Shown here one piece after another: positions 2,784-5,689 of a stretch of 5,805 nucleotides of DNA (positions within the stretch are counted from its first letter, which is position 1; every line of letters begins with the position of its first letter). A program made the position numbers and the translations under genes. Location of the stretch: the NCBI GenBank assembly GCA_014381035.1, contig JACMIS010000707.1, forward strand, positions 1 to 5,805, written 5' to 3'. This DNA comes from Armatimonadota bacterium. Lineage in GTDB: Bacteria; Armatimonadota; Armatimonadia; Armatimonadales; Armatimonadaceae. The notes under the pieces are model-generated. The model made no database searches and was not told the DNA's origin. It was given only the letters and a program-made list of their open reading frames with translations.

Positions 2784-4142
2784 TCATGCCGTTTGACCGG
2801 GGATGAGTTCCATGGGCAACGTCGAGCAACATTCTTCATGAGGCGCACCCGCGATTTTTTGCAGCAGGTTTTTCACGGCGAGGTTTCCCAGTGCCCGAAA
2901 GGGCTGGCGAAGGGTAGTCAACTTGTCGCCGACGCCCTGAATGTAATACGGGATACCGTTGACCCCCACGACCGCGATGTCGTCGGGAATGCGTAGCCCA
3001 CGGGCAAGAATCAGCCGGATCAAAATTGCCGCCAGCCCATCATCGGGGGTAACGATAACAGTGGGAGGGAGCGGTTGACTCAGACAATCCTCCAGAGCCG
3101 CTGCATATAGCGATTCTTCCCAGATATTTTCTTTCAACACATAAGTGATCGTTTCGTCATCGGGGAGTTCACATGCAGCCAATCCCCGGCGGTACCCGTC
3201 GAGACGATCCGAATAGTTCGAGGAGTGTGCCGGTCCGATCCAACCGATTCGCCGATGCCCCCGCTGATACAAATATTGCACCATCTCAGACACGCCCCGG
3301 ATGTTGTCCGCATTCACATAACCGACCGTTTCCGGCACATGACGGGATAATAGAGCAACAACGGGAAGTCCGGCACGGGCGACCTCTTCGAGCACCGGTT
3401 CTGTCCAGCCAGGAGCGACCCAGATCAGCCCATCAATATGACCATCCAGAAACGCCAATCCCGGATGACGATGGGGTCGGTAGAGCCAGCCGGGGTAGAG
3501 CAAAACATTGTATTCCGCGCGATCTGCCGCCTCATTGATGCCGGAAAGAACCAACTGCGAGATGCTGTTTTTTTCCAGTTCCGTCACACCGAAAAGAAGA
3601 ACCCCCAGGATGTGTGTCCGACGCTGGCGGATCGCCCGCACCAGAGCATTGGGCGTGAAATGCAACGCCTCGATAGCCTGCCGGATGCGCTCCGCCGTTT
3701 CAGCGCGGATATAGCCCTGGTTATTCAAATAGTTGGAAACCGTCGCGGTGGAAATACCCGCCTGCAGGGCGACATCCCGGATCGTGGCTCGCCTGCGTTC
3801 CGTATCGCGCGTTCCTTCCCAGCCGCGCTCAGGAATCGCCTCCTCAGCGGTCAATGGCGGGGCGACGGTCAGGGCAGAAGTGGCATGTTTCTTCAGGAGC
3901 CAGTTCGCTACCGTCTGGTGATTGACCCCGACCTCACGGGCTATCGCCCGGATCCCTTTCCCGGTTTCGTGCAGTGCGGAAACGCGTTGATGCAGGGCGT
4001 CGGAATAGACCGGCGTCTGCGGCGACTCGATATAGCGACGCTGGCAGTGAGCACACTTATACCGCTGGCGCCCCTGACTCAACCCCGCCCGGACTTGCGA
4101 GGTGGATTGGTGACAATGGGGACAGGTAATCATGATATTCAT
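2784..4142 (-). CDS. InsA-like zinc ribbon/HTH fused to a LacI-family transcriptional regulator
   Basis: The frame is uninterrupted for 452 residues. Residues 1-86 resemble the DNA-binding protein InsA of IS1: a zinc ribbon with C7, C10, C30 and C33 (CPHC...CAHC) and a helix-turn-helix at about 63-84 (GIRAIAREVGVNHQTVANWL). A 30-residue linker with a basic RRR follows. A normal LacI regulator starts at about 119: TIRDVALQAGISTATVSNYL helix-turn-helix, hinge helix TPNALVRAIRQ (163-173), and a periplasmic-binding-protein-like sensor domain to the end, with TPDDGLAAILIRLILARGL (365-383), IPDDIAVVGVNG (385-396) and TTLRQPFRALG (409-419). LacI repressors are usually about 330-350 residues, so the excess equals the InsA part. 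It is presumably a ligand-responsive DNA-binding repressor; the ligand, probably a sugar or related molecule, cannot be told. The ATG at 4142 has AGGA 11 bases upstream; the ATG at 4133 is the alternative. It is divergent to the prepilin. Confidence 0.88.
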   Translation of the reverse strand: MNIMITCPHCHQSTSQVRAGLSQGRQRYKCAHCQRRYIESPQTPVYSDALHQRVSALHETGKGIRAIAREVGVNHQTVANWLLKKHATSALTVAPPLTAEEAIPERGWEGTRDTERRRATIRDVALQAGISTATVSNYLNNQGYIRAETAERIRQAIEALHFTPNALVRAIRQRRTHILGVLLFGVTELEKNSISQLVLSGINEAADRAEYNVLLYPGWLYRPHRHPGLAFLDGHIDGLIWVAPGWTEPVLEEVARAGLPVVALLSRHVPETVGYVNADNIRGVSEMVQYLYQRGHRRIGWIGPAHSSNYSDRLDGYRRGLAACELPDDETITYVLKENIWEESLYAAALEDCLSQPLPPTVIVTPDDGLAAILIRLILARGLRIPDDIAVVGVNGIPYYIQGVGDKLTTLRQPFRALGNLAVKNLLQKIAGAPHEECCSTLPMELIPGQTA

Positions 4143-4315: not shown

Positions 4316-4345
4316 TTGACAGCGCGAAAAAACCTGAGCTATAAT
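4316..4345 (+). promoter_or_regulatory. consensus sigma-70 promoter of the prepilin gene
   Basis: TTGACA (4316-4321) and TATAAT (4340-4345) both match consensus perfectly, with an 18-base spacer. Transcription would start near 4352, leaving an untranslated leader of about 123 bases before the ATG at 4475. The leader holds only short inverted repeats: TAGTA/TACTA (4355-4373), AGGGT/ACCCT (4410-4427) and ACAAC-C-GTTGT (4446-4456). The rest of the gene-free stretch 4143-4474 shows nothing else I can name. Confidence 0.8.
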
Positions 4346-4445
4346 GCAATCAGTTAGTAAACCCGTTCTACTACTTTGAGTTCGACAATCGAATCGTGTT
4401 TATACGGGCAGGGTTAATGTCGACCCTTATAGCTACACGTCGCAG

Positions 4446-4474: not shown

Positions 4475-5332
4475 ATGTTGTATCCTATGGCACTCCGCCC
4501 ACTACCATCGAGCATCAAACGAGGCTTCACGCTTATCGAATTGCTTGTTATTATCGTCATTATCGCTATACTTGCAGCGATACTTTTCCCGGTCTTCGCA
4601 CAAGCTCGCGAGAAGGCACGCTCTGCGTCCTGCCTTTCCAATGAAAAGCAGATCGGTCTCGGCGTGATCCAGTATGTTCAGGATTACGATGAGGCGTTCC
4701 CGCTGTCGTATGCCGCCTACCCGTCCGCGTTCAACACCTTTACCGAATGGACGACGGCAATCGACCCGTATGTCAAGCTCGGGGTAGGGAACAAAAACGG
4801 CGGGAAGACCGGGGGGATCTATCGCTGTCCCTCGTTCCCGGATCAGGATCAGGGTCAACAGTACCATGTGCGGGAGGATATGTTTATCGGTTCCTGGCAA
4901 GTCGCGACCGGTGAAGTCGGAACCCTCGCAAAGGTAACCGAGCCCGCCAGCAAGGTCATGATATGGGAAGGCGGTTTGCAAGGCTTCCCCGGCTGGTGGG
5001 ACCCCACGAATAACACCGGTAACGCGCAATGCCCGGTCGACGAATGGGCGTGGCTCGGCGACAACGGTATCACCGGCGAAAACAACGGCACCACCAAAGC
5101 CGGTATTCGCCCACCGGGGGGCAACTTCGGGGGTGACTACGACTGTAAATCACCGGAACATGACTGGTGGGGCGGGTGTAATGCGATGCCCCGTTATCGC
5201 CACAATGGCACGGCGAACTTTATCTTCTTCGACGGTCACGTGAAAGCGATCCCGCGCGGCAGACTGAACTACCAACGCAACGTTTACATGGGTTATTGTA
5301 GCGGTGGGACTAAAGGCTGCCCACTCTGGTAA
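4475..5332 (+). CDS. type IV pilin-like prepilin (pseudopilin) with H-x9-DG C-terminal motif
   Basis: This is a 285-residue secreted or surface protein with a class III signal. A short basic leader ends in KRG, prepilin peptidase would cut after Gly17, and FTLIELL follows with the conserved Glu at position 5 of the mature protein (Glu22). The hydrophobic helix spans about 18-40 and leads into [12 protein letters not shown] and the [20 protein letters not shown] segment. The globular part has seven Cys residues and a WxG-rich middle. Near the C-terminus His243 and Asp253-Gly254 form the H-x9-DG motif of the DUF1559-type prepilin families that are expanded in Armatimonadota and Planctomycetota. 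The ATG at 4475 is chosen because AAAGGA lies eight bases upstream; the in-frame TTG at 4457 has no such site. The substrate or structure it serves (pilus, secretion pseudopilus or surface layer) cannot be told. Perfect consensus promoter elements suggest strong expression. Confidence 0.93.
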
Positions 5333-5401: not shown

Positions 5402-5689
5402 ATGAGCGAAGACAAGAAGAAATGGGTGGTCGGAGGGATAGCACTCATCGCTGTTCTGACCACGGTTGCGGTTTTTCAGTCACGCCCCGATTCGGGTGGG
5501 GGGGACAGTATCGGCGCGGGTCCTGTGTCCAAACCGAAAAGTGTCGAGCAACAGATCAAAGATGTTGAGGCAAACCCGAACATCCCGCCTTCCCAGAAAG
5601 CAACCATCATCGCGGCGATCCGCATGAATTCCGGACAACAAGCCACCGCCGGTGCTCCCCAAATCGGCATCGCTACTTCCAAACCATAG
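5402..5689 (+). CDS. small single-pass membrane protein of unknown function next to the prepilin
   Basis: The product has 95 residues. A charged start (MSEDKKK) is followed by a hydrophobic segment WVVGGIALIAVLTTVAVF at 8-25, which fits a signal anchor or uncleaved signal with the remainder outside the membrane. A low-complexity Gly/Ser/Pro stretch (29-46) leads to a predicted helix (about 47-74) with VEQQIKDVEANPNIPPSQKATIIAAI. The tail is rich in Ala, Gly and Gln. There is no Cys and no lipobox. I do not recognise a named family. The gene starts 69 bases after the prepilin on the same strand, separated by the hairpin at 5340-5379, and no separate promoter is obvious, so co-transcription is likely. 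Its ribosome binding site is weak (purine-rich GAAGCAAGATA only). A role in pilus or pseudopilus assembly is inferred only from position. Confidence 0.75.
   Translation: MSEDKKKWVVGGIALIAVLTTVAVFQSRPDSGGGDSIGAGPVSKPKSVEQQIKDVEANPNIPPSQKATIIAAIRMNSGQQATAGAPQIGIATSKP

Follow-up and report, generated by a model that had tools for sequence, protein, structure and literature searches.

The 5,805-nucleotide stretch analysed here (the window), from an Armatimonadota bacterium, encodes a protein that joins the DNA-binding module of an IS1 transposase to a transcriptional repressor. A zinc ribbon and helix-turn-helix (HTH) of IS1 InsA type are followed by a linker and then by a complete LacI repressor, all within one frame. 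The fused protein is a real and, as far as the literature searched goes, apparently undescribed variant of LacI; searches covering part of the literature found no description of an architecture of InsA-type module plus LacI. The window is organized as follows.

2784..4142, minus strand: fused regulator gene, 452 amino acids (ATG at 4142, stop ending at 2784)
4023..4130, minus strand: four-cysteine zinc ribbon of IS1 InsA type, residues 5–40 (C7, C10, C30, C33), from profile matches and alignment
3885..4007, minus strand: HTH of the IS1-type module, residues 46–86
3795..3884, minus strand: linker, residues 87–116, variable and apparently disordered (pLDDT <50 at 93–115; entropy 3.06 bits)
3714..3788, minus strand: LacI HTH, residues 119–143 (PF00356; predicted helices 121–128 and 132–139)
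3627..3650, minus strand: LacI hinge helix, residues 165–172 (predicted helix; entropy 0.96 over residues 160–177)
2787..3611, minus strand: periplasmic-binding-protein-like sensor domain, residues 178–452
4316..4345, plus strand: sigma70-like promoter of the divergent pilin gene, TTGACA–18 bp–TATAAT
4355..4373, plus strand: candidate operator TAGTAAACCCGTTCTACTA, weak, 9 nt after the −10 and placed as are the strong sites in L043, L045, L046, L047 and L049
4475..5332, plus strand: divergent pseudopilin-type gene (N_methyl, DUF1559/SBP_bac_10, H-X9-DG), probable target (ATG at 4475; frame-list start 4457)
5402..5689, plus strand: small 95-residue protein after the pilin gene

Profile comparisons place the two parts in their families. 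The IS1 transposase model NF033558 matches residues 7–89 (64.3 bits, E 1.4e-17), a score below its cut-off of 100 bits, which is set for the whole transposase; the IS1/IS1595 zinc domain NF050000 (27.2 bits, cut-off 28) and Pfam Zn_ribbon_InsA (residues 4–34, 20.2 bits, cut-off 26.1) both fall under threshold. Structure prediction gives strands over ribbon residues 11–40 with pLDDT of approximately 91–93. Pfam LacI (PF00356; residues 120–165, 66.9 bits) and Peripla_BP_3 (residues 288–451, 91.6 bits) both exceed their cut-offs, the latter marking a LacI-family sensor domain. The InsB DDE catalytic domain is absent, residues 119–452 being LacI by Pfam, and the LacI HTH starts at residue 119–120, compared with the very N terminus that is usual, if not defining, in the family. 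The original prediction, of an InsA-type ribbon–HTH and a complete LacI in a single frame, is therefore borne out by the matches to either half, with the gene on the minus strand.

The fused layout recurs widely. Residues 1–115 as sole query returned the window protein, two fused proteins and one transposase-like protein; a profile of three fused proteins retrieved 844 proteins at E ≤1e-20 (7990 candidates scored). The ribbon pattern C-x2-C…C-x2-C lies within the first 120 residues in 103 of the best 120 of these 844 (window protein included). Its four cysteines are invariant in the 103 because the search pattern demands them; the QVKAG…QRYKC frame and the module HTH, of which the pattern makes no demand, are conserved as well, with the unforced columns retained in 103 (G), 102 (Q), 101 (A), 100 (W) and 99 (R) of the ribbon proteins. 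A module-only search with P0022, limited to candidates of 0.55–1.75 times the query length (40 in total), gave 30 matches, the query included, all 30 with a LacI domain. Named family members belong to Capsulimonas corticalis, Capsulimonas sp. and Armatimonas sp.; a Fibrella label on P0048 is taken as a binning error. Across 291 genomes of Armatimonadota, the module query found a match at E ≤1e-6 in 26 (18 candidates scored per genome), with long fused frames in three (G001, G002 and G023; 7 loci altogether in the module search), where the module accompanies 2 of 24, 1 of 7 and 4 of 56 LacI-HTH matches, respectively. Scored with a full-length profile (five candidates per genome), these 7 loci reach at least 580.8 bits, against at most 307.9 for ordinary LacI paralogues; intermediate scores came from G001:C165 (the contig of L001) and G021:C58 (L054), both without the module.

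Some listed homologues begin within or after the ribbon, as would be expected if the fusion were an artefact, arising from start-codon choice or from read-through of a short, independent IS1 gene into LacI. Among the 17 of the best 120 that lack the ribbon pattern, 11 start, as listed, within the ribbon, after it or within the module HTH, three (P0101, P0104 and P0110) within the LacI HTH or further on, and three (P0100, P0116 and P0121) just ahead of the LacI HTH. For P0050 (L046) the DNA has a full ribbon 5′ of the listed start, and consistent starts near residue 115 were not seen. The identical fused layout in approximately 100 proteins and three genomes, together with in-frame selection on the module, refutes the artefact, to which we assign a negligible probability. 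That selection is seen in an orthologue pair, L045 (G023) and L047 (G001), in which a simple count method applied to this one pair gives the module a dN/dS of 0.043, the sensor 0.13, the LacI HTH with hinge 0.21 and the linker, over 19 codons only, 1.09. Over 52 sequences, all chosen with the ribbon, conservation of the module is similar to that of the sensor and lower than that of the LacI HTH.

Phylogeny points to an origin in a single event. On a tree of the LacI part (84 rows, 54 fused and 30 unfused, with no locus dropped; quick method, midpoint root), all 54 fused rows form one clade (SH-aLRT 99), whose sister comprises 11 unfused loci (SH-aLRT 99). The module trait changes three times on this tree; in our reading it was gained once and lost twice, in P0100/L001 and in P0116/P0121/L054, and these losses imply that some lineages can do without the module. 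In one of these, L001 (2998–4077) of Capsulimonas sp. RYN_270, a close relative of the L043 regulator has lost the module, and its short intergenic region, set against that of L043, showed neither module nor operator. On a tree of the module itself (51 of the 103 fused proteins and 13 IS rows), IS1-type genes of Armatimonadota adjoin the fused proteins as nearest kin; five divergent IS rows are interspersed with the fused ones, so that a single fused clade is unrecovered, though not rejected (p-AU 0.25). These trees uphold the original proposal that a host regulator captured an insertion-sequence DNA-binding domain, with the module's kin being the IS1-type transposases of the phylum.

Module matches outside fused genes were characterized by inspecting the frames of 16 and 8 loci, in partly overlapping sets. 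Judged by eye, what resembles the start of InsB (DEL/DEM motif) comes after the module in L014/L015, L018, L020/L041, L042, L101, L102 and L103; the module stands in a short frame only in, for example, L017, L019, L022–L024, L028 and L104, and further loci gave no frame by the pattern used. L036 is a longer transposase-like frame with a module match, and the match in L100 is an unrelated sigma-factor-like HTH. An IS1-type element of approximately 840 bp is present in two copies in G021, bounded by terminal repeats GGGAGTACCTAACWTAGC and flanked by target duplications of approximately 7 bp. A frame from 1907 on the minus strand of L099 (G004:C7; 390 residues) carries a similar ribbon–HTH before what by eye resembles an IS5-type transposase.

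Fused loci related to that of the window (clearly so in L043–L047 and L049) carry a 19-bp odd palindrome (8+3+8) of the type TGATGAAC-N3-GTTCATCA, present as TGATGAACTTGGTACATCA in L043, in place of the even operator with a central CG pair that is usual, although not defining, for LacI. In related genomes the palindrome lies 7–12 nt after the −10 of TTGAC…TAnAnT promoters, the distance being 8–11 nt in the related fused loci. When each locus is scored with a matrix that excludes the locus itself, its nearest copy and L048 (and that includes the window site for the other loci), the palindrome ranks first in six of the eight fused loci (L043, L044, L045, L046, L047 and L049). The window candidate at 4355–4373 ranks fifth of 5787 positions (score 3.3, matrix built without the window site) and the L048 site is weaker, at rank 29 of 14522; the L044 site precedes the regulator itself, without a recognized promoter. 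Promoter-like sequences with a site score of at least 2 number 6 of 14 in fused loci versus 0 of 14 in 13 unfused LacI loci of G023, in a count where the motif was derived from the loci in which it was then counted, the window site (3.3) is among the six and the threshold was chosen after that score was known.

Three genome patterns made from such sites were scanned over G023, G001 and G002. The first has seven places in G023, three of them adjoining fused regulators, and none when reversed; a two-mismatch scan (G023 and G001) is near background, with 15 rows in G023 versus 8 for the reversed pattern. A promoter-like sequence precedes 9 of the 30 pattern places examined, which are all of those in G023 and all but three of those in G001 and G002. 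By score, it precedes eight of the nine places scoring at least 20 (six of these nine made the matrix) versus 1 of 21 lower-scoring ones. Paired sites also occur: L049 has two operator-like 19-bp palindromes in tandem, 21 bp apart (7064–7103), and, like this pair, the unfused L054 regulator of a loss group has adjacent operator-like palindromes at 2587–2605 and 2609–2627.

Behind the promoter in L043, L045, L046, L047, L048 and the window stands a pseudopilin gene with an N-terminal methylation motif (DUF1559 matches for all six except L045, read by eye), and in the first five of these loci the small gene after it is lipoprotein-like by eye; L044 and L049 showed no pilin gene. Four promoter sites took no part in building the matrix; downstream of them are a GH44 gene (L105), a GH2-type gene (L129), a DUF1559 pilin gene (L128) and a gene for a secreted protein without Pfam match (L130). 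The neighbours of fused regulators include GH3, GH5, GH43 and sugar-transport genes. In related genomes, the LacI half appears to act at the palindrome of pseudopilin and glycoside-hydrolase promoters. In L105 the operator (3678–3696) sits in the promoter before the GH44 gene (3775–6945), beside GH5 genes and approximately 10 kb from the L045 fused regulator, in what is likely a cellulose or xyloglucan regulon.

Proximity to pilin genes is common to unfused LacIs as well, which suggests a general pairing of LacI and pseudopilin genes in Armatimonadota. In G023, 17 of 52 ordinary LacI genes lie within 2.5 kb of DUF1559 pseudopilin genes versus a random mean of 3.0, and an even palindrome stands just after the promoter at the ordinary LacI loci L083, L084, L086, L089 and L090. 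Elsewhere in the window, on the minus strand, 2186–2548 encodes a 120-residue protein with the GreA/GreB C-terminal domain only (residues 47–113, PF01272; N-terminal GreA domain unmatched), and 249–1805 encodes Ffh (SRP54; 518 residues), whose C-terminal tail is long and rich in Gly, Pro and Met.

The unfused sisters indicate which half recognizes the operator. L062 carries TGATGAACTCAGTTCATCA and L061 TGATGAACTCAGTTCATTT, of the type TGATGAAC-N3-GTTCATYW, the half-site in L062 being identical to that of fused loci; an 8+3+8 palindrome-like site is the best or second best in 8 of the 11 sister loci (L055, L056 and L058–L063), with no clear palindrome-like site in L064, L065 or L093. Because this operator type is common to the unfused sister LacIs, the operator belongs to the LacI half; the module therefore did not create it, the type predates the fusion and odd symmetry is not a mark of fusion. 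Were the IS1-type module to read the palindrome instead of the LacI HTH, this would account for the rarity of such operators in the family (PMC4052901 gives 1251 of 1303 LacI regulators as even and 4% as odd), for the lack of such a site upstream of the module-less L001 and for its lack at the 14 promoter-like sites of unfused G023 loci, yet the sister loci speak against this reading and we regard it as very unlikely.

We consider it moderately probable that the fused protein is a ligand-responsive LacI-type repressor whose LacI half blocks pilin and hydrolase promoters until a sugar binds, and to which an IS1 module, added once, gives a second DNA contact. By the simplest account, the DNA-binding module of an IS1 transposase, zinc ribbon and HTH, would have joined a LacI repressor in a single event, in some armatimonadotal ancestor. 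The LacI half would bind the 19-bp odd palindrome 7–12 nt after the −10 of pseudopilin and secreted glycoside-hydrolase genes, and transcription would stay blocked until sugar occupies the sensor domain. Tethered by its flexible linker, the module may contact DNA at another point, close by or remote, and so make repression stronger or more far-reaching. We infer this dual contact from the IS1 ancestry of the module and the selection on it, which make it the likeliest role; in InsA, according to PMC12428005, zinc finger and HTH are both needed for binding IS1 ends. The two DNA-binding units would then be expected to read two types of site, and might read composite operators or bridge two sites, as first suggested. 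A more specific version, in which the LacI half holds the promoter palindrome and the module holds second, IS1-end-like or structure-specific DNA, with four DNA-binding units per dimer and bridging or looping under sugar control, we put forward tentatively and as rather unlikely.

The module may instead have ceased to read DNA, serving in protein–protein contact, in zinc or redox sensing or in stability and leaving all DNA recognition to the LacI half. Such a role fits the unfused L061 and L062, which have the same operator without the module, the two losses, and the outcome of a comparison by eye of few loci, which revealed no further conserved block next to the operators. It sits less easily with the retention of both ribbon and HTH, including a GVNxQSVxNW region conserved in paralogues and common to the IS1-type genes of the phylum, and with the dN/dS of the module, which in one pair is lower than that of any other part of the protein; a pure contact domain, moreover, has no need of a recognition helix. 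We judge this doubtful, though a serious alternative to a second DNA contact. The original prediction had also raised repression of insertion-sequence copies, whereby the module would still read IS1 ends and the fused protein would control IS1 copies in response to a metabolite. The closeness of the module HTH to IS1-type genes of Armatimonadota and the repression of the IS1 promoter by InsA (PMC12428005) favour it. However, it is unlikely because, in the draft genome G001, nothing outside the two fused regulators matches the module at E ≤1e-4 (98 of 98 candidates scored); furthermore, the only other match in G023, among those listed, is a distant IS1-like gene, and the operators and neighbours indicate pilin and sugar genes. 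The claim thus finds no footing here, and we hold it to be highly improbable.

Compared with LacI/GalR repressors such as PurR, CcpA, CelR and RbsR, the fused protein adds approximately 115 residues, an N-terminal ribbon–HTH module and linker, and loci of its family carry an odd 19-bp palindrome with a 3-bp centre where even palindromes are usual (PMC4052901). It resembles the N terminus of InsA and IS1 transposases in having a four-cysteine ribbon and then an HTH (NF033558, 64 bits), and differs in that LacI stands where the transposase has its catalytic InsB (DDE) part. Host regulators that took up the DNA-binding domain of a transposase are a recognized origin of new eukaryotic transcription factors, and host–transposase fusion factors such as SETMAR are known mainly in eukaryotes. 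The fused LacI shares with SETMAR-type fusions a transposase DNA-binding domain on a host protein; unlike them it is bacterial and ligand-responsive, and its partner already has a DNA-binding domain of its own.

The family thereby offers a bacterial case of capture in which the donor type (IS1) can be traced and the recipient clade is resolved along with its unfused sister. It has many paralogues, two losses and a predicted operator, and the effect of an added DNA-binding domain on a working repressor becomes directly testable. DUF1559 pseudopilin genes are very numerous in Armatimonadota, and the family also provides a first reading of how one group of them may be regulated. If the fused proteins do anchor DNA through both halves, a domesticated transposase domain would be an architectural arm of sugar and pseudopilin regulation in this phylum.
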